Assembly (NCBI GenBank): GCA_016937175.1
Contig: JAFGWL010000018.1
Span: 1 to 64,000, forward strand
Reading direction: 5' to 3'
Origin: Candidatus Mcinerneyibacteriota bacterium
Lineage (GTDB): Bacteria > Macinerneyibacteriota > Macinerneyibacteria > Macinerneyibacteriales > DSCS01
DNA length: 64,000 nt
Under the pieces are notes generated by a model. The model searched no databases. It had not been told where the DNA came from and saw nothing but the letters and a program-made list of their open reading frames with translations. Below are positions 30,220 through 44,656 of this stretch, piece after piece (positions within the stretch are counted from its first letter, which is position 1; the number at the start of each line of letters is the position of its first letter). The position numbers and the translations under genes are program-made.

Positions 30220-31710
30220 ATGGTGTCTTTTCTTTGTGCAGCAGCCTTTTTCAGAGCAGAGAACACGCCGGGCTTTATTTCAGCCCTTCTGGAACTGGCC
30301 GGAAAAATATCCTCTTTTATCCTCTCAATCAGGTTTTCCCTGGAGGAGCGTTTTCTTCTGCTGACCAATGCCCTGTGGCTTTTTCTCCTGTGTGTCACAC
30401 TGGCCATGGCAGCCTACCTCGTTTTCCTCAGCTACAAATATCTGGATACCGTCAAGTTCCGGGCGCTAAGAAGCTTTTTCAACGGCAGTCCCTCTCCCTG
30501 GGTGATCCTCATCGTCAACATCGCCGTCAGCCTTGCTTTTTTCCTGGGAGGCTGGATCCTGGTCTTTTTTCTGAACCTTCATAACTTTACAAAAAAAGAG
30601 CTCAGGACTCTCACCATCTGGGCCCTTTTTATCTTTATCCCCTTTGGGGTCACGGTGACACATGCAGGCTGGTTCGACGCTGTGGCAGCCCGCTCTCCCC
30701 TGGCTCTTTTAAAAGCTTTTGACCGGGAGGATATCTCCCTTTTAAGGGAATACCGGGAAGACGCTTTTGTCCGGGACAACCCCCTCTATCTTTATCTCAT
30801 GGCCACAGGCCGGGGAACTCCTGCTGAAGGGACCTCTTACAGACGGACAGCGTCACTCCTTCAAAGAGCCGTTGCAGGGGGCTATGAGTCGGCAGCTGTC
30901 TACAATAACCTCGGGAATGCCCTGCTCATGCTGGATTCCTCAGAACAAGCTTTGGCCTATTATGAACGGGCACTCTCCGCCGCCTCCCGAGATCCTGTCA
31001 TCCTCTACAATATCTCCCAGTATTATCTCTACCGGGATGACTATGATACAGCAAAGATCTTTTATGACAAAGCTTTCGCCGCCAAGGGGCAGCTCGAACT
31101 CCCTGTACTGGACTGGGAGAATATCATCCTTCTGGAAAAGAAGATCGCTCCTTCCTTTGTCTGGCATTCGTTTTTGCGGGATACCGCCCGCTGGGATTTT
31201 CCTGTCAAAGCTCTCTCTTACAGCAAACTGGCCTTTTTCCCGGCCTTTTCCGCGATCCTGCTTATCCTTATCCTGTTTCTCTTCCCCCTGACAGTCAACT
31301 GGGCCTCATTTGTAAGGTGTGAATCTTGCGGCATCCCTATCATTCCGGGATCTGCCACCACTTCCCATCGGGGGCGCATCTTCTGTTCACGGTGTCATCT
31401 CATGCTGCCTGTCTATCTTCACCAGAAGGCCGGAAGGCATTCCATGGCCCGGAAGATCGATACTTTAAAGACCTATTTCATCAACCTGATCTACCCGGGG
31501 AGCGGCTATATTATCAAAGGAGCCACGGTCTCAGGTTCGATCTGGGTCTTTTTGACCACCTCTCTTATCACTACTGCTCTTTTCAGCCGTTATCTCCTCA
31601 TTTCCGACCTGAGGGCGATTTCTTCACTGAATGACCTGCTCCTCTTCTATCCTCTCTTTTCCCTGGTTTCCACGGTGATGCTGCCTTTCTTTGCCAGGAG
31701 GAGCCTATGA
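30220..31710 (+). CDS. Membrane protein with TPR region and zinc ribbon
   Basis: About 496 residues if the ATG at 30220 (MVSFLCAAAFF) is used. This ATG is preferred over one at 30190 because a TATAAT promoter ends 7 bases ahead of it. Two or three membrane helices at the N-terminus are followed by a soluble TPR segment (about 210-300, with LGNALLMLDSSEQALAYYERAL), another helix, a CxxC...CxxC zinc ribbon (CESCGIPIIPG and FCSRCH) and two more C-terminal helices (GATVSGSIWVFLTTSL and the last 25 residues). I do not recognise a family. It is coupled by ATGA to the DUF4388-like gene downstream. Confidence 0.72.
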   Translation: MVSFLCAAAFFRAENTPGFISALLELAGKISSFILSIRFSLEERFLLLTNALWLFLLCVTLAMAAYLVFLSYKYLDTVKFRALRSFFNGSPSPWVILIVNIAVSLAFFLGGWILVFFLNLHNFTKKELRTLTIWALFIFIPFGVTVTHAGWFDAVAARSPLALLKAFDREDISLLREYREDAFVRDNPLYLYLMATGRGTPAEGTSYRRTASLLQRAVAGGYESAAVYNNLGNALLMLDSSEQALAYYERALSAASRDPVILYNISQYYLYRDDYDTAKIFYDKAFAAKGQLELPVLDWENIILLEKKIAPSFVWHSFLRDTARWDFPVKALSYSKLAFFPAFSAILLILILFLFPLTVNWASFVRCESCGIPIIPGSATTSHRGRIFCSRCHLMLPVYLHQKAGRHSMARKIDTLKTYFINLIYPGSGYIIKGATVSGSIWVFLTTSLITTALFSRYLLISDLRAISSLNDLLLFYPLFSLVSTVMLPFFARRSL

Positions 31711-33086
31711 TCGACCATCCCGTCCTACTGGATTATTCCTCCTTTAAAAAAGCCGTGGAGAATATATCTCTTCTTGAAAAGACAGGTACGCTGGATATCC
31801 GCGATAAAAAGACAGAACAGTCTTATTACTTTTATATTAAAAACGGGGAGATCATCTATATCGAGGAGCATCCGGTCTGCCTTGAAAACAGGATCGGCGA
31901 CACCCTTCTGCGGCAGGGATTGATCACAGAAACCCAGCTTCAGCAGGCCCTGGAAAAACAGAAAAAGAATACCTATGAGTTTTTGGGAGACCTTCTTTTG
32001 AAAGAGGGGTATATCTCCCCCAGGGAGCTGCTGGCTTCGCTGACTTACCAGATTGAGAATGTCCTCTTCTCTATTTCCCTGATCCGGGACGGCGAGTTTG
32101 TCTTCAGGGAAGGCGAGACTCCCGACAGGATGCCTCAGATCCCCTACACGATCACTCTCAGCAACCTTCTGCTGATCTTTCTGAACTCCTCGGAGATCCT
32201 TGTCAAAATGCCTTTCCTCATCGAAGGGCTCGATATATCTCTGAGAATCGACTCTGTAGCAGTCAATATCCATCAACTCAACCCCATGGAGCAGTCAGTG
32301 ATCGACGACTTCAGAAAAGGCCGTTCTATCAAGGATATCCTCGAGAATGCCGGGGAGACCAACCACATTACCATGTTGAGCGTCATCGCCGACCTCTATG
32401 ACAGAAACATTCTTCGTCCTCCCGGCGAGAGTATGAAGAGTCAAAGCAAAACAGCACCTTCTGCTGCCCCTGAAGAAGCTCCGAAAAAGGAAACTCCTGT
32501 AACACCACCTGAAAAAAAGCCGGAACCGGAAAAACCCGCTCCTCAGGAAAAGACACCGGCTTCCCGGCCTCGCTATACGGAAGAGCCTATCCAGTTTGTC
32601 TATAAACCCGAACCTCAGCAGACGCCGGTGGCACCGGCCCCTCCCCCGCAACGGGAGATTCCGCATCGCCAGACACCTCGGAAGAGAACCCCGGCACCTC
32701 CTCAGAAGAGAATTCCTCCTCCCCGTCCGGCCGTTTCTTCCTCAGCCCGGCCGCCCAGGCCTTTGCAGCCCCCCCGTCCAGGGACATATGCCCTGGTTGA
32801 GGCCCTGTCCTTTATCTCAGTCCTCTTCCTTCTCATCCTCTACCTGGCCCTTTTGAAGCCTCTGTTTAAGACGCCTGTGACAGATCACTTAAGTATTATG
32901 AATCCGGAAGCTTTCCGGGAGATCAAAAAAGAGAGGACTCTTCAAATGGGAACAGTCTATACACGGGATGAACTTCTGAATCGGCGTGACGGGTGGCACA
33001 ATCCCTTCTCGGCCCGGGGAGAGGATATTTATTCATCGGGAGCTGACGGGATCCCGGATACTCCTGATGATTTCCGCGTCAAATAG
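31707..33086 (+). CDS. DUF4388/PatA-N-like protein with Pro-rich linker and pseudopilin-like C-terminus
   Basis: A 459-residue protein. Residues about 8-240 resemble the DUF4388/PatA N-terminal family, found in gliding and signalling proteins (KTGTLDIRD...YYFYIKNGEIIYIEE, then a GspE-N-like IGDTLLRQGLITETQLQQAL segment repeated). Residues 245-355 are a Pro/Glu/Lys-rich linker. A single membrane helix (about 365-388) precedes a short extracytoplasmic tail that reads GWHNPFS...IYSSGADGIPDTPDDF, like the C-terminal signature of GspG-type major pseudopilins. So the cytoplasmic domain is tethered through the membrane to a pseudopilin-like end. It overlaps the convergent hydrogenase-like gene by 8 bases at their stops. 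Confidence 0.68.
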   Translation: MIDHPVLLDYSSFKKAVENISLLEKTGTLDIRDKKTEQSYYFYIKNGEIIYIEEHPVCLENRIGDTLLRQGLITETQLQQALEKQKKNTYEFLGDLLLKEGYISPRELLASLTYQIENVLFSISLIRDGEFVFREGETPDRMPQIPYTITLSNLLLIFLNSSEILVKMPFLIEGLDISLRIDSVAVNIHQLNPMEQSVIDDFRKGRSIKDILENAGETNHITMLSVIADLYDRNILRPPGESMKSQSKTAPSAAPEEAPKKETPVTPPEKKPEPEKPAPQEKTPASRPRYTEEPIQFVYKPEPQQTPVAPAPPPQREIPHRQTPRKRTPAPPQKRIPPPRPAVSSSARPPRPLQPPRPGTYALVEALSFISVLFLLILYLALLKPLFKTPVTDHLSIMNPEAFREIKKERTLQMGTVYTRDELLNRRDGWHNPFSARGEDIYSSGADGIPDTPDDFRVK

Positions 33087-34419
33087 GACTGAACCCCTCA
33101 CTGTCGTTTTCAATGGGATTTACATGTCCCGCCATCTGGACGATATCTTTTGAAAGTTTTCGCAGCCTTTCCTTCAGAATTACAGGGCAATCGTAGATGG
33201 TGACATCTTTTCCGATGATGATATCCTCAGCCAGGTCGTAACAGGTAGGACAACCGCACATCCCGCAATTCAGCTGGGGGAGGAGCCGGTTGACTTCTTC
33301 GATCTTCTTCATCTTTTTCAGAGCTTCCTTGATATCCTCATCCAGGGGGCTGATCGGGCGGGGCTTAAGAGGCATTCCGATGGAACAGATCTCATCCCGG
33401 TCGAAGGGAAGCGCCAGGGCGGGTTCATCGGGAAGTCCTTCGGCGATCTTTTTGATCCTGTATTCACTGATAAAGGCATCTTCCTTGGTAAAGACGCCCC
33501 CCACACAGGAGTTGTCACAGGAATACATATCGACGAAATCAATATCCTTGATCTCCCCGTTCTCAAGACGCTCTAAAAAGCGGATGGCATTCTGTATCCC
33601 GTCTATTCTGAGAGTCACGGATTCGTTGAATTTGTTCTCGACATCTCCCAGGGCGCTCCAGCGAAGGGCGAATTTGGAAGAGACGATCTCCTCTTCCATA
33701 TCCATCTCGGAAAAGTCCTGTTTTTCCATGATCCTCCGGATCTCATTATACATGTCCCCCAGGCTGAAGACCCCGTCAAAGATCCTCTTTTCTTCGGCTT
33801 CGGGCTGATATATCGCCACCACTTTGGCAGGACAGGGCGAAAGGTAGAAAAGGCCGATCTCATCATCGGAAGCCCCTGTCTTCTCCTGATAGACATGCTT
33901 CAGATATTCTCCTGCCACATCCATAAGGTTGCGCAAAGGCACAAGGTGATTGATCAGCGAAGGGAACTTGACCTGGATCAACCTGACAACTGCGGGACAG
34001 TTGGTGGAAATATAGGGACGGTAGATATTCTTTTTGTCTTTGAGGAAATTCTTGATGATATCCGATATGATCATTCCGCCTGTATCTACTCCGATGATAT
34101 CGTCAAACCCCAGGAGTTTGAAGATTCCCAGGATCTTTTTGACATTGTCGGTCTTCCTGAACTGCCCGAAGAAGACCGGAGAGTAGACAAGGAGTTTATG
34201 TTTGTAGGCAGAGATGATCTCCAGGGTGTCGACTTTCGCTGAAATGGCCTTCTGGGGACAGACTCGGATGCATTCTCCGCAATCGATGCACTTGTTTTCC
34301 AGGATATTGGCCTTCCCGTGACGGATGCGCATCGCCTGGGTAGGGCAGACTCTCAGACAACGTGTACATCCGTTGCAGCGGCTCTGGTCAACGTAGACAG
34401 CATGAAAATAGTCCAACAT
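33079..34419 (-). CDS. [FeFe]-hydrogenase-like sensory protein with two ferredoxin clusters and C-terminal Fe-S domain
   Basis: A 446-residue protein. Two 4Fe-4S ferredoxin motifs come first (C15, C18, C21, C25 and C44, C47, C50, C54), then an [FeFe]-hydrogenase catalytic domain, then a C-terminal Fes-type 4Fe-4S domain (C385, C388, C393, C411). The H-cluster ligand cysteines appear retained: C141 in TNCPAVV, C196 in LSPCPAK, C301 and C305 in YSCDNSCVGG. The residue before C141, which is the proton-transfer Cys in catalytic hydrogenases (TSCCP), is Asn140. This favours a sensory or very slow enzyme. The operon continues from two GHKL ATPases, a PHP protein and two DRTGG proteins, so a redox or H2 signalling role is likely. 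Confidence 0.85.
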   Translation of the reverse strand: MLDYFHAVYVDQSRCNGCTRCLRVCPTQAMRIRHGKANILENKCIDCGECIRVCPQKAISAKVDTLEIISAYKHKLLVYSPVFFGQFRKTDNVKKILGIFKLLGFDDIIGVDTGGMIISDIIKNFLKDKKNIYRPYISTNCPAVVRLIQVKFPSLINHLVPLRNLMDVAGEYLKHVYQEKTGASDDEIGLFYLSPCPAKVVAIYQPEAEEKRIFDGVFSLGDMYNEIRRIMEKQDFSEMDMEEEIVSSKFALRWSALGDVENKFNESVTLRIDGIQNAIRFLERLENGEIKDIDFVDMYSCDNSCVGGVFTKEDAFISEYRIKKIAEGLPDEPALALPFDRDEICSIGMPLKPRPISPLDEDIKEALKKMKKIEEVNRLLPQLNCGMCGCPTCYDLAEDIIIGKDVTIYDCPVILKERLRKLSKDIVQMAGHVNPIENDSEGFSPI

Positions 34420-34428
34420 AATGCTCTG

Positions 34429-34854
34429 TCATCCTTTCTCTATGGTAAAGATCATCGTGACCTCGGTCCCTTTGTCGATCTCACTGGCGATCTCCATCTC
34501 ATCACTGTTCCGTTTCATATTGGGCAGCCCCATTCCGGCCCCGAACCCCATCTCCCGGACTTCGGGGCTTGCCGTGGAATATCCCTCTTCCATAGCTTTA
34601 TCGATATCCGGGATTCCCGGGCCCTTATCCCGGACGACAACCTTGACTTTGGTCTCATCCATATAGAAAGCGATGGTTCCGCTATAGGCATGGGCGACGA
34701 CATTCAGTTCGCCCTCATAGGCAGCGATAAGCACCCTGCGGATAAAGGCCGGCGGCAGTCCCAGCTTTTTAAGGTACTCTTTTATGACTCCGGAGGACTC
34801 TCCTGCGTTAAGAAAATCCCCGCCTTTGATTTCAAATTCCATGAGTAGTTCCAT
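34429..34854 (-). CDS. Anti-sigma regulatory factor-type ATPase (RsbW/SpoIIAB-like)
   Basis: A 141-residue GHKL-fold ATPase of the RsbW group. The N box is YEGELNVVAHAY, the G1 box DKGPGIPD, and the G2 box GFGAGMGLPNM. Such proteins phosphorylate or bind an anti-anti-sigma factor. The Asn within ELNVV, which binds Mg, is retained. It is 10 bases downstream of the other GHKL gene and 9 bases before the hydrogenase-like gene. No sigma factor or STAS-domain partner lies in the cluster, so the substrate is unknown; the hydrogenase-like protein could be the sensory partner. Confidence 0.88.
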   Translation of the reverse strand: MELLMEFEIKGGDFLNAGESSGVIKEYLKKLGLPPAFIRRVLIAAYEGELNVVAHAYSGTIAFYMDETKVKVVVRDKGPGIPDIDKAMEEGYSTASPEVREMGFGAGMGLPNMKRNSDEMEIASEIDKGTEVTMIFTIEKG

Positions 34855-34864
34855 AGTCCCGCCT

Positions 34865-35416
34865 CTAATCAGTCAAGTCCAGTTCCTTCAGGCCGCTTTG
34901 AATATCCTCTTCCAGAGCTCCCAGAACCTGGGGTGTAGCCAGGCTGACATCGCCCAGGATCTCCCGTATGATACGTGTATCGAATTCATATTTGGTTCCG
35001 TCTTTTTTAACCATGACATAGAGATCGATCTCCGGATGTCCCACGATAAGAGACAAAAGGGTATCCGTGATATTCCCCAGGGGAGGCCGGTCGATGTGGG
35101 ATAATCTCATCTCCACGCTGACCCTTGTATAGGAACCCTCTTTGGATTCGATGGAGAAGCCTCCGTCGCAGGTTTCAGCTGTCTGCATAAAGAGGGGTAT
35201 TCCCAGGCCCCATCCTTTCCCTTTTTTTGTAGAAAAGAGAGGATCCATAGCCTTTTCTATCATTTCCGTATCCATTCCCTTCCCGTTATCCACCACAGTG
35301 ATCTTCAGCCGGTCTTCTGCTGTATCGACCTCGATGAAAAGGTCAAGATGCCAGGCCCCGGCAGCGATCCCGTTTTCCATAATATCCATGATATGGAGGG
35401 AGAGTTCAGGCATCAT
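34865..35416 (-). CDS. GHKL-type ATP-binding protein
   Basis: A 183-residue protein with a histidine-kinase-type ATPase fold in the first ~115 residues (LSLHIMDIMENGIAAGA as N box, VVDNGKGMD as G1 box and STKKGKGWGLGIPLF as G2 box) and a C-terminal ~60-residue extension (GTKYEFDTRIIREILGDVSLA). There is no dimerisation or phospho-accepting His domain. It overlaps the PHP gene by 11 bases. It may act with the RsbW-like protein next door. Confidence 0.85.
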   Translation of the reverse strand: MMPELSLHIMDIMENGIAAGAWHLDLFIEVDTAEDRLKITVVDNGKGMDTEMIEKAMDPLFSTKKGKGWGLGIPLFMQTAETCDGGFSIESKEGSYTRVSVEMRLSHIDRPPLGNITDTLLSLIVGHPEIDLYVMVKKDGTKYEFDTRIIREILGDVSLATPQVLGALEEDIQSGLKELDLTD

Positions 35417-36143
35417 AGATGATCTTCCTTCCCCGGGCCCCTTTCAAAGCCAGCCGGAACTCTTCAAACGTGGGAGCTTCAAGCTCGTAAGTAGTGGACA
35501 CACAGCCCACATCGTCGATAAGATGCGCATCGGAGTTTGTGATAAAGGGGAAATGGGTATACTCCTCGTATCGGCTGCGTGCCTTTTCCAAAGAGAGATG
35601 CCTGGAGATCTCTATCCCGTCTACAAGGGTATCTTCGGGAATAAACCCCAGCTGTGAGATAACGCTGAAGGTATCCCGGTCTATATGAGAAAAAAATACC
35701 AAGCCGCCCCGGCTATGTACCTCTTCGGTTATCTCTTCGATCTCCATATTCACAGACTGTAAAAGCAATTTTTCCTCCATACGGATGATCTGGTCCCGGG
35801 CATCCACAACCACCTGATCCCCGAAGTAGTCCGGATTATTGGGTATCATAGGCAGCCGGGGATAGAGAAGACCTCCCATGTCTTCAGCACTTTTTCTCTC
35901 TCCGAAAAGGGCCAGGAGATGAGTCTCGGACGCACTCTGGATCTCCAGGCCGAAAAATAGGGCGATCCTGCCCCGGGCAGCCTCTTCAAGGGCTTCCAGG
36001 TTCCCGGCGCTGTTATGGTCTGCAAGGGCGATGATATCGATTCTCTTTTCCAGGGCTTTCTGCACGATGGCTGCGGGAGACATGTCGAGCCCCCCGCACG
36101 GTGAAAGCACAGAATGGATGTGAAGGTCAGCCCTGAAACGCAT
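35406..36143 (-). CDS. PHP-domain phosphoesterase
   Basis: A 245-residue PHP-domain protein with the HxH motif at residues 8-10 (DLHIHSVLSPCGGLD) and DHNSAGN, followed by FSHID and a final NSDAHLIDD, giving the usual metal ligands. Many PHP proteins hydrolyse phosphoesters such as nucleotide 3'-phosphates or short oligonucleotides. It is encoded between two DRTGG genes and two ATPases, a set that recurs in anaerobic bacteria by my recollection. The biochemical target is unknown. Confidence 0.88.
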   Translation of the reverse strand: MRFRADLHIHSVLSPCGGLDMSPAAIVQKALEKRIDIIALADHNSAGNLEALEEAARGRIALFFGLEIQSASETHLLALFGERKSAEDMGGLLYPRLPMIPNNPDYFGDQVVVDARDQIIRMEEKLLLQSVNMEIEEITEEVHSRGGLVFFSHIDRDTFSVISQLGFIPEDTLVDGIEISRHLSLEKARSRYEEYTHFPFITNSDAHLIDDVGCVSTTYELEAPTFEEFRLALKGARGRKIIYDA

Positions 36144-36476
36144 CTACTTCACCAGAGCATACAACATCCCAGCACAGGTAAAGGCATCTTTTTCCGTTAC
36201 AAAAAGGGGTACTCCGATTTTTTCAGCGGCTTCTACCAGATTTTGTTCAGGCTCTACGCCGTTGACGACGACGATCCCCGCGATATCTTTAGCTGTAGCT
36301 ACGGCGATGACGTTTTTGTGCCGCTGGATCGTAAACCAGAGAGAACCGCTTTTGGCATGGGCCAAAACATCACTTAGCAGATCCCCGCTGTATCCTCCCG
36401 TTACTTCTGTATCATCGATCTCACGCTGAGTCAGGGCCCTGAGTCCCAGCTTTTCTGCAGCTTCTTTCAATTTCAT
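36144..36476 (-). CDS. DRTGG-domain protein (second)
   Basis: A 110-residue stand-alone DRTGG domain, the small regulatory fold first noted next to CBS domains. GGYSGDLLSDVLAHAKSGSLWFTIQ and VIAVATAKDIAGIVVVNG are the family's typical segments. It is nearly contiguous with the PHP gene (stop and start adjoin). Its ligand is not known; the fold suggests nucleotide or small-molecule binding. Confidence 0.85.
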   Translation of the reverse strand: MKLKEAAEKLGLRALTQREIDDTEVTGGYSGDLLSDVLAHAKSGSLWFTIQRHKNVIAVATAKDIAGIVVVNGVEPEQNLVEAAEKIGVPLFVTEKDAFTCAGMLYALVK

Positions 36477-36477
36477 C

Positions 36478-36846
36478 TTATACCTCGCTTGCAGGACGGT
36501 TTTTACACGGCCTTACGCCGTTTTTATATAAGATCCCGCTGGTCTCAAACATGGTCTTTCTGGTGACGATCATGGGTATGTTCAGCCGCTTTCTGGCCAC
36601 ATCCATGACATCCTCCGAAGGCTGCTTCCCGCGGATGAATATGATCGCAGTGATCCCGAGGATCTCTGCTACGCGGATCACCTGAAGGGTCACAGTCCCG
36701 GTGATCAACAATGTATCTCCCTCGGTCAGAGCCAGGACATCACTCAAAAGGTCAGCGCTGTAGGCAGAAGAGACCTCTATATCCAGACTCTCCTCTCCTG
36801 CGATGACATCTCCATCCAGCAAATCAATGATCTCTTTGATACGCAT
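36478..36846 (-). CDS. DRTGG-domain protein (first)
   Basis: A 122-residue stand-alone DRTGG domain with AYSADLLSDVLALTEGDTLLITG and IFIRGKQPSEDVMDVA. It is paralogous to the next gene along nearly its whole length and has a GAGGAGGG ribosome site. It leads the signalling cluster DRTGG-DRTGG-PHP-GHKL-RsbW-hydrogenase-like and follows the OmpA-type gene by 15 bases, so it could share that transcript. Confidence 0.85.
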   Translation of the reverse strand: MRIKEIIDLLDGDVIAGEESLDIEVSSAYSADLLSDVLALTEGDTLLITGTVTLQVIRVAEILGITAIIFIRGKQPSEDVMDVARKRLNIPMIVTRKTMFETSGILYKNGVRPCKNRPASEV

Positions 36847-36861
36847 GGGCCCTCCTCACGC

Positions 36862-38931
36862 TCAGCGTGATATCATAATCACGTCGACGCGCCTGTTGTT
36901 CGCCCGTCCCTTTGCATTCTTGTTGGTATCGACGGGCATATCTTCTCCGTAGGCAACGGTGATAATCCGCTCTTCGCTCACCCCTTTATCCACAAGGTAT
37001 TTTTTTACCATTTCTGCGCGTTCACGGGAGAGCTTCTCATTAGCCTGCCTTGTCCCCACATTATCCGTATGTCCTTCCACCCGGACCTTAGCCTCCGGAT
37101 AAAGGGCCAGTGTCTCCACAGCTTTATCCAACTGGCTCTTCTGGGAAGCATCGAGGGTATAAGCATTCTCCGCAAAGCGTATCCTGGCCATGAGGAAGAG
37201 AGCCGGGACAGGAGGCTTCTCCTCGATAACGGGGGTCTCGATCACTTCCCCGGCAGGAGCAGTAACCGGGAGGGCGATGATCAGGCTTTCTCCGCTGTTT
37301 CCCGCTTTATCGGTGATACGGGCATAGACATCGAGTGATTCTCCTTCAGCCGGAACTGACCCGTCAGCCAGATACCCGCTCCACTCGAAACCGTCTTTCA
37401 ACCCGTTATAAATGATCTCATGGACCGTCTCTGTTCCCTTTTTAACAATAATACGGGTCTCTGTGACATCCACCGCTTCGTGAGGAGTAACGTTAAACGT
37501 GACTCCGGCTCCGGGGGAAAGGGCCTCAGGCATGACAGTCAATGTCACCCCCGGATTCTTTGCCCGTGCGGAAAACTGGACGGTATTACTGCTCCCTTTG
37601 TTGCCGAAACGGTCCTTGACCGTCATTACGGCCGTATAGGCACCGTCGGAAACATTTTTCCCCTTATCATCTTTTCCGTCCCATGTGATAAAGGGCGGGA
37701 AGGGCTTTTTGCCCTTATATTCTCTTTTTTCATTCCCGTTCTCATCGCTGATGACCAACTCCCAGCGGGTGATGATCTCGGCGTCTTTGCTGTCGGTCAG
37801 GATCCTGACCTGGTCTTTTACTCCGTCATTATTGGGTGAGATCCACTCGTTTTCGGCCATGATACGGACCACAGGAGGGATCTTATAGGCTGATGCCATG
37901 GTCTTTTCTCCGGTATAGGCTACCTGAAACGCCATGGATGACCCGGTGTACTCTCCTGCCAGGGCATAGCCGGCGGCGATCTCAAATCCGCTGAAACGGA
38001 ATCCCAGCCCTGCTGTTATCTGCCCTTCTCCGTCATAGACGGGATCGGTGGGAACCCCTTCAAAAAGGGCTCCGCCGTCCTTATAAAAGGTATTTTGCAG
38101 ATATCCCGCCCTGAGGGCGATGGTATTGTTGAAGAACCACTCTTCAGCTCCTACATGAAGAGCCGAGGAGTTGGCATGGTTCATCAGGTAGTCGGCCCCC
38201 AGAGAAAAAGCTGCTTCCCCCATGAGCTGATGGTTCACTTTAAGGCCCATTCCCACGTTGATCCCCATGGCCACATCCATGGGAGCTATGACATCCAGAA
38301 GAGAGAGGCCCAGGTTGAAGGTAGACCCCTCTTCGGTGAGAGGGACACGGGCCAGGAAAGATACATCTCCTCCCATGGCTCCGTCTACATAATTATCAGC
38401 CGCCGAAGGGACTTCATAAGCTTCGCCAAGGGTGGGCATGATATATTTTCCGGTAAAAGCCAGGGAGAGGTCGAAACCACCCATGTTGGCTTTCCGGATC
38501 AAAGAAAGCATGGCCATATCCACAGTACAGTCATCCGGATTACTCTCATCGATGGCTCCTGTTGTCCCGTCAGGAAGCAGAAGAGACGTTCTGACTCCGG
38601 TGATGTTCACCACGAACCAGTCTTTAAGGGGAAATGTAACCCCTCCGTAAATATTCTTATAGAGGTCAAGATCTGTATTGGGTTCTTTCATAAAAAGGCC
38701 CATCCCTCCAAAGGCATCGATCCCGTAAGAAAAACCGTATCCGGCAGGGTTGAGCAGATTACCGGTACTCCGGATCAGTCCGATGCCGGCACCCCCCATT
38801 CCCAGAGAAACGGCATCGGTATAGCCGATCCTGGTGTTCTCGTAAAAAGCTGAAGCCGGGTTCTCCCCGTCCACTGCCCACACAGAGAGGCTCAGGGACA
38901 CCATTAGAACCAACAGCAAATATCTTTTCAT
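36862..38931 (-). CDS. Outer-membrane UPF0164-like barrel fused to Ig-like and OmpA domains
   Basis: About 689 residues from the ATG at 38931, chosen because AAAGGGGG lies just ahead. A signal peptide (MKRYLLLVLMVSLSLSVWA) is followed by a UPF0164/PorV-like barrel of about 330 residues (AVSLGMGGAGIGLIRSTG, NPAGYG), a family of FadL-type proteins known in Treponema. Then come a segment WISPNNDGVKDQVRI, typical of gliding-motility-type domains, a FlgD-like Ig domain (WDGKDDKGKNVSDGAYT) and a C-terminal OmpA peptidoglycan-binding domain (VEGHTDNVGTRQAN, GRANNRRVDV). It should sit in the outer membrane and hold it to the wall. Confidence 0.85.
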   Translation of the reverse strand: MKRYLLLVLMVSLSLSVWAVDGENPASAFYENTRIGYTDAVSLGMGGAGIGLIRSTGNLLNPAGYGFSYGIDAFGGMGLFMKEPNTDLDLYKNIYGGVTFPLKDWFVVNITGVRTSLLLPDGTTGAIDESNPDDCTVDMAMLSLIRKANMGGFDLSLAFTGKYIMPTLGEAYEVPSAADNYVDGAMGGDVSFLARVPLTEEGSTFNLGLSLLDVIAPMDVAMGINVGMGLKVNHQLMGEAAFSLGADYLMNHANSSALHVGAEEWFFNNTIALRAGYLQNTFYKDGGALFEGVPTDPVYDGEGQITAGLGFRFSGFEIAAGYALAGEYTGSSMAFQVAYTGEKTMASAYKIPPVVRIMAENEWISPNNDGVKDQVRILTDSKDAEIITRWELVISDENGNEKREYKGKKPFPPFITWDGKDDKGKNVSDGAYTAVMTVKDRFGNKGSSNTVQFSARAKNPGVTLTVMPEALSPGAGVTFNVTPHEAVDVTETRIIVKKGTETVHEIIYNGLKDGFEWSGYLADGSVPAEGESLDVYARITDKAGNSGESLIIALPVTAPAGEVIETPVIEEKPPVPALFLMARIRFAENAYTLDASQKSQLDKAVETLALYPEAKVRVEGHTDNVGTRQANEKLSRERAEMVKKYLVDKGVSEERIITVAYGEDMPVDTNKNAKGRANNRRVDVIMISR

Positions 38932-38946
38932 ATTTCCCCCTTTCAC

Positions 38947-39738
38947 TCATTTACCCAAAAGCAATCTTTCGGCAAGTATATACGGCAAAGGCAGTTCTGC
39001 AAGTTTCTGCTGCGTTTTACGCACATCATAATCCAGCCGGACATATCGGATCGTCTTCTGTTCCGTATCCCATATGAGAAAAGAAGACATATAATTCCCG
39101 TCGCGGGGTTGTCCGACACTCCCCGGGTTGATGATATAGGCTGCCGTCTCATCCAGCTTCCAAGTTTTATCTTCAGGTTCATGCCCGGTCACCCGCTCAC
39201 TGTCCATCTTTTTAATATAGAGATAGGGTTTATGGGTATGGGCGACAAAGGTCAGTTTTCCCGTATGGCCGAAAGATTCCCGGGCCATTTCACTTGAATC
39301 CAGATAATACCAGTTCTCAGGCATCTGGGGAGTGGAGTGATAAAAAGAACCTCCGTGAAACCGTGCCGAATAGGGAAGGGATTTGACAAACCTCTGATGA
39401 GACAGGCCCATCTCTTTTTTGGTCCATATGATCGCTTCATAGGCGATCCTGTTAAAATAACTGATATCCGTAAAATTGATGACGGCAGCGTCATGGTTAC
39501 CCATGATGAGATCCGCTGAGAAGCCTGAAGCCAATTCAAGCTCGCCAGGTTCCAGTTTTTCGGTCTTTTCTCCGGCCATGGCCATAAAAAGCTCCAGACA
39601 CTTCACAGGATCCGGGCCATATCCCACGACATCTCCCACGTGTACGATCCTGCGGATCTTCTCTTCCCGCAGGAAGCGGAGTACAGTCGTGAAAGCTTCA
39701 AGATTCCCGTGTATATCGGCCATTACAGCTATTCTCAT
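38947..39738 (-). CDS. Metallophosphoesterase, YfcE-like
   Basis: A 263-residue calcineurin-fold phosphoesterase with all family motifs: MADIHGNLEAF, GDVVGYGPDP, MGNHDAAV, VAHTHKPYLY and NPGSVGQPRDGN. Substrates in this family are small phosphodiesters or phosphoproteins. It is co-directional with nusB and the rib genes and 15 bases ahead of the OmpA-type gene. Confidence 0.88.
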   Translation of the reverse strand: MRIAVMADIHGNLEAFTTVLRFLREEKIRRIVHVGDVVGYGPDPVKCLELFMAMAGEKTEKLEPGELELASGFSADLIMGNHDAAVINFTDISYFNRIAYEAIIWTKKEMGLSHQRFVKSLPYSARFHGGSFYHSTPQMPENWYYLDSSEMARESFGHTGKLTFVAHTHKPYLYIKKMDSERVTGHEPEDKTWKLDETAAYIINPGSVGQPRDGNYMSSFLIWDTEQKTIRYVRLDYDVRKTQQKLAELPLPYILAERLLLGK

Positions 39739-39747
39739 AATATCTTC

Positions 39748-40161
39748 TTACTCCAGGCTGTCCACATAGGCATGCAGTTTTTTGTCAAAATTCTGAGAGG
39801 CATACTTGTCGCTTAGACGAAGCCCCTCTGATATCACCAGTTTTTTGTCTGTCTTCAAGACAGTCAGCTCAAAGACACAAAGATAGATGAGAGCCTGCTC
39901 CACAAGGTGCAGCTCCCGGAAAGACCCTGTGAATGTCCGTTGAATGTAGGCCTCTATCTCCCCCATCCGCCCCTCAAGAAGAGAGATCGCTGTATGAAAA
40001 GATGCCGCTTTTCGGCTTTCCATTCCCCCGAAAAGGACCTCTTCTCCCCTCGGTTTTGCCGCCTCCCCCTCTTCGCTTTTAGCAAAAAGGTAGGCATAGA
40101 GCCATTGGAGAAGGCTGTCACGGACAGCTTTTTTGTCTTTGACATCCATGGCGGCCATCAT
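39748..40161 (-). CDS. nusB: Transcription antitermination factor NusB
   Basis: A 137-residue all-helical NusB, which with NusE/S10 binds the boxA RNA of rRNA leaders. The N-terminal AVRDSLLQWLYAYLF and the C-terminal LIYLCVFELTVLKTD and VISEGLRLSDKYASQNFDKKLHAYVDSL are typical. The ATG overlaps the ribH stop by one base. The ribH-nusB order is the same as in E. coli and many other bacteria. Confidence 0.93.
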   Translation of the reverse strand: MMAAMDVKDKKAVRDSLLQWLYAYLFAKSEEGEAAKPRGEEVLFGGMESRKAASFHTAISLLEGRMGEIEAYIQRTFTGSFRELHLVEQALIYLCVFELTVLKTDKKLVISEGLRLSDKYASQNFDKKLHAYVDSLE

Positions 40162-40625
40162 TATTTCATCTTTGCGGACAGATCCATGAGCTCAATAAGA
40201 GAGAGCGCGGCATCCCACCCTTTATTGCCCATTTTGGTCCCGGCTCTTTCAATGGCCTGTTCCACAGAGTCAGTGGTCAGGACACCGAAGGCCACAGGGA
40301 TCTTCCCCTCCATAGAAATATGGGCGATCCCCTTGGAGACTTCCGAGGCGACATATTCAAAATGGGGTGTCCCCCCGCGAATGACTGTCGCCAGGCAGAT
40401 GATCCCGTCGTAAGCCCCCTTGTCCACAAGTTTCCTCAGCAGGTACGGGATCTCAAAGGCTCCCGGGACGGGATAGACGTCCATATCGGCGCTTTTCCCG
40501 CCGTGCCGGACGAAGCAGTCCTCGGCCCCTTCCAACAGCTTTTTGTTGATGAAATCATTGAACCGGCCGATGATCACGGCCACCTTTTTTTTATCCGCGT
40601 TTAAATGGCCTTCGATGACACGCAT
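40161..40625 (-). CDS. ribH: 6,7-dimethyl-8-ribityllumazine synthase
   Basis: A 154-residue lumazine synthase that joins the RibBA product with the pyrimidine made by RibD. Motifs are [35 protein letters not shown] and [10 protein letters not shown]. It is preceded by GGGGGA as ribosome site, and followed by nusB with a one-base overlap. The enzyme normally assembles as a 60-mer or pentamer. Confidence 0.97.
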
Positions 40626-40641
40626 AAATCCCCCTTTTTAC

Positions 40642-41859
40642 TCAGATTTCGTCGATGAGATGGCCCATCTTCTCTTTTTTCGTCTGCAGATACTTTCTGT
40701 TATACTCTGATATCTTACCATAGATCGGGACACGTTCCACAACTTCCATACCGTATCCTGATATCGCTACCATTTTTTTCGGGTTATTGGTCAATAGGCG
40801 GATCTTCCTGACTCCCAGGTCATGGAGTATCTGAGCCCCTATTCCGTATTCCCTGAGATCCGGAGGGAACCCCAGAGCTACGTTGGCTTCCACAGTATCC
40901 ATTCCTTTTTCCTGAAGATGGTAGGCATGGATCTTATTGATGAGTCCGATACCGCGACCTTCCTGACGAAGATAGACGATAACGCCGCGGCCTTCCTGTT
41001 CGATGAGTTCCATTGACCTGTGGAGCTGGTCTCCGCATTCACATTTCAGGCTTCCCAGAGCGTCTCCTGTGAGGCATTCGGAATGGACCCTGACCAGGAC
41101 CGGCTCTCCGTCACTCACATCTCCCTTGACTAAAGCAATATGCTCTTTACGGTCCAGTCTGTTTTCATATCCGTAAAGAATGAATTTCCCATATTCGGTC
41201 GGCATCTCAGCTGAAGCCTTCCGGACCATGAAGGGCTCATGGCTCAACCGGTACTCGATAAGGTCCGCTATCGTCAAAAGGAGAAGGCCGTGCTTTCGGG
41301 CGAATTTCCTGAGCCCCGGGAGCCGCATCATATGGCCGTCCTCCTCCATGATCTCACAGATGACTCCCGAAGGATTCATCCCGGCTATCCTCATGAGATC
41401 AACAGCGGCTTCCGTATGCCCTGCCCGCTCCAGGACACCCCCCTCTTTAGCTTTCAGGGGAAAGACATGGCCCGGTTTCACAATATCCGCGGGAGAAGCT
41501 TTGGGGTTGATAGCCGTCTGAATGGTCTTTGACCGGTCAAAGGCTGATATCCCTGTGGTCACTCCGTGCCGGGCTTCTATTGATTCTGTAAAGGCCGTCT
41601 CGTGACTGGACTCATTCACGTCAGTCATCATCTTCAGCCCCAGCCGTTTCACCTGGTCTGATGTGAGGGATAGGCAGATGAGCCCTCTGCCGTTTGCAGC
41701 CATAAAATTGACCGCTTCCGGGGTTGCTTTTTCAGCAGCCATGAGAAGGTCTCCTTCGTTCTCTCTTTTTTCGTCGTCGACGACGATGATCATCTCTCCC
41801 TGACGTAAAGCCTCAAGGGCTTGTTCCACGGTGCAAAAGCCGCCGCTTTGATTTACCAT
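40642..41859 (-). CDS. ribBA: 3,4-dihydroxy-2-butanone-4-phosphate synthase / GTP cyclohydrolase II
   Basis: A 405-residue bifunctional enzyme for both entry steps of riboflavin synthesis. The N-terminal ~200 residues are DHBP synthase (DDEKRENEGDLLMAAE, HGVTTGISAFDR, GHVFPLKAKEGGVLERAGHTEAAVDL). The C-terminal half is GTP cyclohydrolase II with the zinc Cys triad in HSECLTGDALGSLKCECGDQL and LRQEGRGIGL. It overlaps the ribE stop by 7 bases. Confidence 0.97.
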   Translation of the reverse strand: MVNQSGGFCTVEQALEALRQGEMIIVVDDEKRENEGDLLMAAEKATPEAVNFMAANGRGLICLSLTSDQVKRLGLKMMTDVNESSHETAFTESIEARHGVTTGISAFDRSKTIQTAINPKASPADIVKPGHVFPLKAKEGGVLERAGHTEAAVDLMRIAGMNPSGVICEIMEEDGHMMRLPGLRKFARKHGLLLLTIADLIEYRLSHEPFMVRKASAEMPTEYGKFILYGYENRLDRKEHIALVKGDVSDGEPVLVRVHSECLTGDALGSLKCECGDQLHRSMELIEQEGRGVIVYLRQEGRGIGLINKIHAYHLQEKGMDTVEANVALGFPPDLREYGIGAQILHDLGVRKIRLLTNNPKKMVAISGYGMEVVERVPIYGKISEYNRKYLQTKKEKMGHLIDEI

Positions 41860-42488
41860 TCTTTTAATGCCTCCTCAAGGGACCGGGATCCTTTGCCGCC
41901 CGTTATCCCTTTTAATGCCTTGTTGACATATTTACCGATCATATCATATTCCAGATGGAGACGGTCCCCCTCTTTTTTCTCCCTGAGAGAGGTATTCTCC
42001 CAAGTGTGAGGGATGATCCCCACCCGGAAAGAATCGTATCCCGCATCGATCACGGTGAGGCTGATCCCGTCAACAGCCACAGATCCTTTTTCTGTGACAA
42101 GAACGCTCTGTTCAGGGGAAAAAGCGATGGTCAGGATGCGGCTCTCACCGCGCCGTTCGATGGCCCTGATCACACCGGTCCCGTCCACGTGTCCCTGGAC
42201 AAAATGGCCGTCCAGCCGGCTTCCCACAGAAAGAGCACGCTCCATATTGATCTTTGTCCCCGGGGGCATCTCTCCGAAAAGGGTCCGTCGGACAGTCTCC
42301 TCCATGATCTCAAAACAGAGGGAATCCTTTGTGACGTCCACGACGGTGAGACAGGCTCCGTTACAGGCCACAGAGTCTCCGGCTTTCACATCCGGCCAGA
42401 CCGAAGCGGTGATCTCCACGGCAAGGACCATTCCCGAAAGCCGTTTGGTTTTAAGAGTTCCCACCTGTTCAATGAGGCCTGTAAACAT
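41853..42488 (-). CDS. ribE: Riboflavin synthase alpha subunit
   Basis: A 211-residue riboflavin synthase made of two lumazine-binding halves. It begins MFTGLIEQVGTL, has NGACLTVVD in the first half and GHFVQGHVDGTG and SVAVDGISLTVID in the second. It dismutates two lumazine molecules to riboflavin. It starts 20 bases before the ribD stop. Confidence 0.97.
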   Translation of the reverse strand: MFTGLIEQVGTLKTKRLSGMVLAVEITASVWPDVKAGDSVACNGACLTVVDVTKDSLCFEIMEETVRRTLFGEMPPGTKINMERALSVGSRLDGHFVQGHVDGTGVIRAIERRGESRILTIAFSPEQSVLVTEKGSVAVDGISLTVIDAGYDSFRVGIIPHTWENTSLREKKEGDRLHLEYDMIGKYVNKALKGITGGKGSRSLEEALKEW

Positions 42489-43545
42489 CGTGACACTTCC
42501 CTTTCAACATGATATCTTCTCCGACCTTGCGCCAAACAGGGTCTTTCAGTGGACGGGCCATTTCCATCTTCGGCACGCCCCGGCCGCCGGCCGGTGAAAG
42601 CCCTCCTCCCAGGATCCTGGGAGCGATAAAGACGACGACTTCATCAACGAGGCCTGCTTCAAGCAGGATATGGATCGTATGAGCGCCTCCCTCGATCAGA
42701 AGGGAATAGAGGCCTTCTTTCCATAAAACTTCTGTAAACTCCCGTCCAGATAAAGCAAATCCCCCAGGGAGAGTATAATTTCTAAACCCCTTGATATCAA
42801 GATATTTTTCCTGTTGGGTCAGAATGACACCTTTCCCTTCGAAGACATGGAACTCCGGAGAAGAGATCTCTCCCAGGGGGTCATAGATGACTTTCACCGG
42901 CTGCCACCCCCGGGGGTCGAGACGGGCGGTCAGCCGGGGATTATCCCGGAGGACAGTCCCGGCCCCTACCATGATCCCCTTGACATTGTGACGGAGCCGG
43001 TGGACCACTTCCCGGCTCTCTTCACAGGAGATCCATTTGGAATCACCGGTGCAGGTCGCGATATATCCGTCAGCGGTCATAGCATATTTCAAAATGATAT
43101 AAGGTCTCTTCTGAAGGATGTTTTTTATGAAAATGCGGTTCAGCTCCCTGGCCTTCTTCTCCTGAAAACCGACACGGACTTCAACTCCGGCATTTTTTAA
43201 CTTTCTGAAGCCCTCTCCGGCTACAAGGGGATTGGGGTCTTCCATGGCGGCATAGACAGCCCGGACTTTTTTTTTGATGATGAGGTCTGTACAGGGAGGA
43301 GTCTTCCCATGATGGCTGCAGGGTTCCAGAGTCACGTAAAGATCACATCCCTCGGCCAGGCGTTCATCGATATCCAGGGCTTTCACTTCAGCGTGGGCCT
43401 CTCCGAAACGGCTGTGAAACCCTTCCCCCACAATATGGCCATCTCTGACAGCCACGGCTCCCACATAGGGGTTAGGCTGCACAGCGGCGTCGGCTGAAGC
43501 CGCCAGTTCCAGAGCCCTTTTCATAAAACGGGGTTCATACGACAC
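42469..43545 (-). CDS. ribD: Diaminohydroxyphosphoribosylaminopyrimidine deaminase / 5-amino-6-(5-phosphoribosylamino)uracil reductase
   Basis: A 358-residue bifunctional enzyme. A GTG at 43545 is chosen because AGGAGG lies 7 bases ahead and inside the dgt 3' end; the longer frame has no such site. The N-terminal zinc deaminase has HAEVKALD and PCSHHGKTPPCTD; the C-terminal reductase has KYAMTADGYIATCTGDSKWIS, GIMVGAGTVLRDNPRLT and LIEGGAHT. The operon order ribD-ribE-ribBA-ribH is the classical one. I saw no FMN riboswitch ahead of it. Confidence 0.96.
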   Translation of the reverse strand: MSYEPRFMKRALELAASADAAVQPNPYVGAVAVRDGHIVGEGFHSRFGEAHAEVKALDIDERLAEGCDLYVTLEPCSHHGKTPPCTDLIIKKKVRAVYAAMEDPNPLVAGEGFRKLKNAGVEVRVGFQEKKARELNRIFIKNILQKRPYIILKYAMTADGYIATCTGDSKWISCEESREVVHRLRHNVKGIMVGAGTVLRDNPRLTARLDPRGWQPVKVIYDPLGEISSPEFHVFEGKGVILTQQEKYLDIKGFRNYTLPGGFALSGREFTEVLWKEGLYSLLIEGGAHTIHILLEAGLVDEVVVFIAPRILGGGLSPAGGRGVPKMEMARPLKDPVWRKVGEDIMLKGKCHDVYRPH

Positions 43546-44656
43546 CGGTAAGCCTCCTGAACTCATCCAGGGCAAACCGGTCTGTCATTCCGGCGATGTA
43601 ATCGGCAATAGCCCGCTCGGGGGAAGAGGCCTCCACCTCCCGCCGGTAACGTCCGGGCAGAATATTGGGATATTTCTTGTAGAGAGAAAAGAGGGTCTCA
43701 AGACAACCTTCTGCGCTGATGCGCATCCGCTCCACACGGGGATGATTATAGAGGTTGTCGTAGAGATATGTCTTCAGCTGCTGTCTTTTGTCGTCGATGG
43801 CGGGACTGAATCCCACCACCCGGATGTTTTTCCTTTTGATCTCTTCGAGGTCCCGGGCCTTGTTTTCATCAATATTCTTCTGAGTAGTCTCGATCAGATC
43901 GTTGATGAAAAAGGCGATGAGGGCACTTATAGTCCGGTATTTCAGGACCTTGCCCCCGAGCCCGGCATCATCGCGGCGGGCCTCCTCCATGGCTTCTGTC
44001 CAGATAGCGATCTCTGACAGGTCATCCCACTCCAGCAGGCCCGATTCCAGGCCATCATCAAGGTCATGGTTCAGATAGGCGATCTCGTCGGCATAGTCGA
44101 TGAGCTGGGCCTCCACCGTGGGGACCCGCCCCAGGTCGAAGAGCTCTTCCAGGTCTTTTGTGGATGGCTTGTCATAGGGCGTAGAGTGTTTGATGATCCC
44201 CTCCAGGGTCTCATAAGAGAGGTTCAGCCCCCTAAACGACCCGTAGCGCTCCTCCAGGTAAGTGACGATCCGATAGCTCTGCCTGTTGTGTTCAAATCCG
44301 CCGTGTCCCTCCATAAGCCTGTTGAGGACTTTCTCTCCGGTATGGCCGAAAGGAGTATGCCCCAGGTCATGGGCCAGGGCGATAGCCTCCACCAGCTCCA
44401 TGTTCAGCCTCAGCCTTTTTGCCATGCTCCTGGCGATCTGGGAGACCTCCATAGTATGGGTCAGCCGCGTCCTGTAATAATCTCCTTCATGGTTGACAAA
44501 GACCTGTGTCTTGTACTCGAGTTTCCGGAACGCTTCGCAATGAATGATCCGGTCGCGGTCCCTCTCATAGATCCCCCGGTTATCGTGAAAATTTTCTTTA
44601 TTCAAACGTCCCCGGCTCTTCTCGTCTCTCATGGCATAATTTGCATATAATTCCAT
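43535..44656 (-). CDS. dgt: dGTP triphosphohydrolase-like HD-domain protein
   Basis: A 373-residue HD-domain protein that splits dNTPs to nucleoside and triphosphate. Motifs are RDRIIHCEAFRKLEYKTQVF, TRLTHTMEVSQIARSMA, AHDLGHTPFGHTGE and YADEIAYLNHDLDD. The length fits the shorter Dgt type rather than the 500-residue E. coli enzyme. It heads the riboflavin operon with an 11-base overlap with ribD. Confidence 0.93.
   Translation of the reverse strand: MELYANYAMRDEKSRGRLNKENFHDNRGIYERDRDRIIHCEAFRKLEYKTQVFVNHEGDYYRTRLTHTMEVSQIARSMAKRLRLNMELVEAIALAHDLGHTPFGHTGEKVLNRLMEGHGGFEHNRQSYRIVTYLEERYGSFRGLNLSYETLEGIIKHSTPYDKPSTKDLEELFDLGRVPTVEAQLIDYADEIAYLNHDLDDGLESGLLEWDDLSEIAIWTEAMEEARRDDAGLGGKVLKYRTISALIAFFINDLIETTQKNIDENKARDLEEIKRKNIRVVGFSPAIDDKRQQLKTYLYDNLYNHPRVERMRISAEGCLETLFSLYKKYPNILPGRYRREVEASSPERAIADYIAGMTDRFALDEFRRLTGVV

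Follow-up and report, generated by a model that had tools for sequence, protein, structure and literature searches.

A hydrogenase-like protein of putatively sensory group D type is conserved with GHKL ATPases, a PHP phosphoesterase and DRTGG proteins: a candidate H2- or redox-sensing module of anaerobes

Introduction

The closest described relatives of HydS, the hydrogenase-like protein considered here, are the group D (M2e) [FeFe]-hydrogenases, which have been proposed as sensory (PMC8163306). Their published traits are the absence of a PAS domain, loss of C299, replacement of M353 by Ser or Thr, and a C-terminal Cx2Cx4Cx16C iron-sulfur motif; the same authors ask how signal transduction works without a PAS domain (PMC8163306). 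The putatively sensory group D protein TamHydS of Thermoanaerobacter mathranii resembles HydS in domain layout, the lost relay cysteine, the serine at the M353 position, and the C-terminal FeS motif (PMC8163306, PMC13104023). HydS departs from TamHydS in its Asn at the relay position, its last C-terminal spacer of 17 rather than 16 residues, its gene order, and its site away from hydABC. In every Thermoanaerobacter strain studied, genes for a histidine kinase and a group D-like hydrogenase lie upstream of the hydrogenase (PMC3608648). For Halanaerobium hydrogeniformans, a putative operon, Halsa_1862-1871, is listed as comprising a hydrogenase, NADH dehydrogenase, ferredoxin-like protein, histidine kinase, NuoE, PHP, second iron-sulfur hydrogenase, and anti-sigma/Ser-Thr kinase (PMC4237134). 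Unlike the locus described here, that operon is joined to hydABC; the DRTGG proteins are unnamed, and neither a module nor a function is proposed in the passage that lists it (PMC4237134).

The group C sensory [FeFe]-hydrogenases (TmHydS, Thermoanaerobacterium HfsB/HfsC, and R. albus HydS) also possess a sensory-type H-domain with altered H-cluster surroundings, are encoded near another hydrogenase, and have an adjacent phosphatase (PP2C-like at locus L010). They differ from HydS in having a PAS domain, in standing separate from group D in our tree, and in their PP2C partner, which takes the place of PHP.

Parts of the operon are thus already listed for single genomes. In the literature searched, which covered few subscription papers, we found no paper defining the six-gene set, its DRTGG members, its fusions, or its HydS-free form. 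A fixed partner set, together with the fusions and the HydS-free form, names candidate signalling proteins and pairs to test, and control of the NADH-linked HydABC by H2 bears on fermentation yield, on the passage of H2 between species, and on methane formation in the rumen or digester.

Results

The window, by which we mean the whole 64,000-nucleotide stretch analysed, is contig C30 of a 1.88 Mb genome from a phylum represented by three genomes. A preliminary description had reported six genes in one direction with overlaps or gaps of at most 10 bases, encoding the hydrogenase-like protein, two GHKL ATPases, a PHP enzyme, and two DRTGG proteins. The single direction agrees with the ORF coordinates and the domain types agree with Pfam; the 10-base limit holds for all gaps and fails for one overlap, that of PHP and GHKL2, which measures 11 bases. 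The genes are as follows:

HydS, 33079-34419, minus strand, 446 aa: group D (M2e)-type [FeFe]-hydrogenase-like protein
GHKL1, 34429-34854, minus strand, 141 aa: SpoIIAB/RsbW-like ATPase, predicted Ser/Thr kinase
GHKL2, 34865-35416, minus strand, 183 aa: ATPase consisting of a single HATPase_c domain and a conserved C-terminal extension
PHP, 35406-36143, minus strand, 245 aa: predicted PHP-family metallophosphoesterase
DRT2, 36144-36476, minus strand, 110 aa: stand-alone DRTGG-domain protein
DRT1, 36478-36846, minus strand, 122 aa: stand-alone DRTGG-domain protein

Transcription proceeds in the order DRT1, DRT2, PHP, GHKL2, GHKL1, HydS, with successive junctions comprising a gap of 1 base, a gap of 0, the 11-base overlap, and gaps of 10 and 9 bases. 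Pfam assigns DRTGG to DRT1 and DRT2 (33.7 and 28.6 bits for the two proteins against PF07085, cut-off 25.2), PHP, above cut-off, to the phosphoesterase, HATPase_c and HATPase_c_2 to GHKL2 and GHKL1, and Fe_hyd_lg_C with N-terminal Fer4 and C-terminal FeS matches to HydS. The six-gene block recurs with its flanks in genome G001, at 75-90% protein identity (alignments reported for HydS, GHKL2, and PHP); because block and flanks are kept, we regard the six ORFs as real genes.

An OmpA-domain gene ends 15 bases upstream of DRT1, so the six genes may form the distal end of a longer transcription unit. A scan of 32800-43500 for promoters and terminators returned numerous consensus matches and did not clearly delimit an operon. 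The upstream block (43575-36862, minus strand), much of it kept in G001, has small gaps and carries riboflavin-synthesis-like genes (42469-43575, 41853-42488, 40642-41859, and 40161-40625), a NusB-like gene, a metallophosphoesterase gene, and the OmpA-domain gene; flavin genes may share a transcript here with regulators of a flavin-using hydrogenase. On the other side, a DUF4388 protein with a c-di-GMP-binding motif is encoded at 31707-33086 on the plus strand, converging on HydS and overlapping its 3' end by 8 bases.

The four H-cluster cysteines named in the preliminary description (C141, C196, C301, and C305) are all in place and are invariant in 60 relatives. Its placement of Asn140 at the proton-relay position, which corresponds to C299 in CpI, also stands: this phylum has Asn there, with Ser, Phe, Thr, Tyr, or Ala in others. 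Ser194 occupies the M353 position, and Pfam detects no PAS domain. Two [4Fe-4S] motifs lie at the N-terminus; of the eight ferredoxin-type cysteines, all but C18 are invariant among the 60 relatives, 58 of which retain C18 as well. The C-terminal cysteines C385, C388, C393, and C411, which match PF04060 and are likewise invariant, form a Cx2Cx4Cx17C motif whose last spacer is 16 in the compared relatives outside this phylum. A 100/100 branch separates all 20 HydS-D rows from groups A and C in a tree limited to the group A, C, and D rows of our own loci. Judged by sequence, HydS fits the putatively sensory group D (M2e) of [FeFe]-hydrogenases, with every published trait present except the length of that last spacer.

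The preliminary description had named absence of HydEFG as an observation that would refute its circuit reading. All three maturases are encoded elsewhere in the genome (HydG and HydE on contig C6, HydF on C2), so that the H-cluster can be made in the host and loss of the maturases is rejected. Contig C6 also encodes a HydABC-type hydrogenase.

GHKL1 displays the features of SpoIIAB-type GHKL proteins, an E-x3-N motif and G1 and G2 boxes. Its invariant residues are E47, N51, D76, G78, G80, G103, G105, G107, and G109, which include the G2-box glycines of the ATP site. A structural model of the DRT1::GHKL1 fusion at locus L013 (mean pLDDT 88.5) places the GHKL1 domain closest to SpoIIAB (1til; Z 18.7, rmsd 1.9 over 132 residues), compared with Z of about 10 for histidine kinases. 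The DRT1 part matches the DRTGG protein AF1212 (Z 17.6, rmsd 1.8, 111 residues) and, at Z 14.2, the CBS-DRTGG region of a family II pyrophosphatase. That region has the DRTGG fold and the company of CBS in common with the module; it differs in that DRTGG proteins are mostly stand-alone here and are linked to a hydrogenase and a kinase-type ATPase. S35 and T49 are invariant in DRT1, with D32 present in 57 of 58 sequences, and all three residues are invariant in DRT2.

Ser35 of DRT1 lies, in the L013 model, at the start of a helix that follows a strand. The acceptor serine of STAS proteins likewise sits at a helix start, and by analogy Ser35 may parallel it. Compared with the SpoIIAB/RsbW partner-switching systems, whose kinases share their fold and conserved ATP-site residues with GHKL1, the six-gene cluster encodes no STAS antagonist and no sigma factor by Pfam, and the DRTGG proteins stand in that place. 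Four STAS proteins are encoded elsewhere in the host genome; GHKL1 could therefore act on one of them instead of on DRTGG.

All nine putative metal ligands of PHP (H8, H10, D42, H43, E67, H75, H153, D205, and H207) are invariant in 53 sequences, with C16 and E178 likewise kept. GHKL2 (model mean pLDDT 88.8) is nearest in fold to the ATPase domains of topoisomerase VI, MutL, and GyrB, at Z of about 12. Its HATPase_c domain begins at residue 9 of 183, and Pfam finds no N-terminal domain before it that could supply a DHp region with a phosphoacceptor His; a classical two-component histidine kinase is rejected for GHKL2 on this ground.

The preliminary description had also proposed a search of other anaerobes for the same gene order, with scattering of the genes in relatives as the contrary outcome. 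We compiled 60 HydS-D loci that span at least five bacterial groups, comprising named ones from Bacillota, Bacteroidota, Aminicenantes, and Ignavibacteria, those of this phylum, and 40 from genomes of one Bacillota phylum. The set stays together: all five partners lie on the HydS strand at 50 of the 60 loci. HydA is near HydS at 50 of 60 as well, and rex at 15. Where at least 6 kb was available on both sides (n = 53), all five partners were present at 44 loci and HydA with NuoF at 46. In other phyla the genes usually run DRT1-GHKL1-HydS-DRT2-PHP-NuoE-GHKL2-Fd2-NuoF-HydA; here the order differs and the set is still together. In genome G002 the six genes lie directly behind a hydABC operon. The module is not adjacent to hydABC in the present genome or in G001, which counts against a link to HydABC.

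Across 398 Bacillota genomes, HydS was detected in 159, PHP in 154, GHKL2 in 169, and all three in 146. HydS and PHP occur together in 148 genomes (HydS without PHP in 11, PHP without HydS in 6), and HydS and GHKL2 in 154 (HydS without GHKL2 in 5, GHKL2 without HydS in 15). Each pairwise association among the three has a Fisher p below 1e-84, uncorrected for shared ancestry. Co-occurrence in these genomes and co-localisation at the 60 loci reject the idea of chance neighbours.

Four kinds of fusion connect members of the set: DRT1::GHKL1 in Tepidanaerobacter relatives (L013, L068, and L070), HydS::DRT2 (L075), PHP::GHKL2 (L103 and L104), and CBS::GHKL1 (L012, L069, L108, and L109). In the six Bacillota genomes scored with PHP and GHKL2 and no HydS, a complete DRT1-GHKL1-DRT2-PHP-GHKL2 module is present at four loci (L108, L109, L110, and L113), the other two (L111 and L112) being on cut contigs. 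These HydS-free loci carry a long GHKL1, with a CBS domain by Pfam at L108 and L109 and CBS-like by reading of the sequence at L110 and L113. Genomes G398 and G317 possess a HydS-free module (L120 and L122) together with HydS on another contig. The rex gene adjoins the module at L108, L117, L119, L120, and L122. Since a HydS-free form with CBS on GHKL1 exists, the other five genes look like a core for which HydS is one exchangeable input. HydS-free modules also occur away from hydABC (L109, L110, L113, L120, and L122), and HydABC therefore cannot be the sole target of the core.

Discussion

At the level of sequence, the integrity of the module, the conserved catalytic residues, the pairing of partners in fusions, and the association with hydABC are established. 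A sensing role for HydS and a link to HydABC are in turn well supported by family traits and gene context, and the preliminary reading of the locus as a redox- or H2-sensing circuit gains support from the group D fit and from the coupling to kinase-type ATPase, phosphoesterase, and DRTGG partners in distant bacteria. The account that we favour, and consider probable, is a module that senses H2 or redox state and tunes HydABC through DRTGG proteins, on which a SpoIIAB-like kinase and a PHP phosphatase both act. Because the genes keep together in many anaerobes, in most cases next to that hydrogenase, sensing of H2 or redox state and adjustment of the NADH-linked enzyme is the most likely function; with HydA nearby at 50 of the 60 loci, HydABC is the most likely output.

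HydS would bind or turn over H2 at its H-cluster and convey its redox state to protein partners, perhaps via the C-terminal [4Fe-4S] cluster. GHKL1 would serve as an ATP-dependent kinase of SpoIIAB type, with the DRTGG proteins as its regulatory partners or substrates and their invariant Ser35, at the helix start, as candidate phospho-acceptor. PHP would take off the phosphate, or a nucleotide signal, with GHKL2 as its ATPase partner. The output would adjust the synthesis or activity of the electron-bifurcating HydABC, matching H2 formation to H2 pressure and NADH load. We infer the DRTGG phospho-switch from the fold, the conserved residues, and the fusions; that H2 is the signal, that signalling runs in this direction, and that HydABC is its target are likewise inferred.

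More tentatively, and at appreciably lower odds than the HydABC-tuning module, DRT1-GHKL1-DRT2-PHP-GHKL2 might constitute a signalling system that is widespread among anaerobes and so far undescribed. Its kinase, of SpoIIAB type, and its PHP phosphatase would switch DRTGG proteins, in place of STAS proteins, on the invariant Ser; the inputs would be exchangeable, with HydS responding to H2 and CBS to adenine nucleotides, and the targets would extend beyond HydABC.

The six genes include no DNA-binding protein, response regulator, or sigma factor, and consequently the cluster offers no route to transcription. This fits an alternative in which the partners are assembly or activity-control factors acting directly on the HydABC protein, in an ATP-dependent, chaperone- or lock-like manner, with HydS as sensor or electron partner and no transcriptional signalling. 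At most loci the hydABC operon itself contains GHKL2 and the ferredoxin-like Fd2, placed between NuoE and NuoF; the MutL/GyrB-like fold of GHKL2 and its lack of DHp point the same way, as does its persistence in 9 genomes in which neither HydS nor PHP was scored, at least some of them with GHKL2 beside hydABC (L115, L116, and L118). We nevertheless judge direct control unlikely: the HydS-free modules far from any hydABC argue against it, as does the absence of the hisK and hydD products from the holoenzyme of a NiFe relative of HydABC (PMC9304861).

Somewhat less likely again is a nucleotide-signalling unit in which DRTGG domains, and CBS domains in some loci, bind an adenine nucleotide, PHP hydrolyses that or a related nucleotide, the ATPases report energy charge, and HydS provides redox input. 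The pyrophosphatase CBS-DRTGG region among the nearest solved DRTGG relatives, the CBS fusions to GHKL1 at some loci, and the presence of endonuclease Q and an exoribonuclease among the nearest PHP relatives by sequence are consistent with such a unit; ligand binding by DRTGG is only putative, however, and the module contains no nucleotide synthase or cyclase. Because TamHydS, itself of group D, is an active enzyme that turns over H2 reversibly (PMC8163306), a metabolic role for HydS is conceivable, but a slow metabolic hydrogenase among unrelated operon passengers is strongly disfavoured and highly improbable given co-occurrence and co-localisation in distant bacteria, rearranged orders that keep the set, and the four kinds of fusion.

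In genome G050 (L114:6658-7927), HydS is present as two short pieces and PHP as one short piece beside DRT2, NuoE, GHKL2, and HydA, and the module looks decayed. At L117:961-2125, in a genome scored without HydS, PHP is down to a weak match (31 bits), and DRT2, GHKL2, and rex remain. Genome G003 carries a second HydS copy (L027:10001-11383) split into three pieces. In genome G002, a group C-type HydS adjoins a PP2C-type phosphatase gene (L010:7558-15608) within a second hydrogenase operon, which follows a Rex-like gene.
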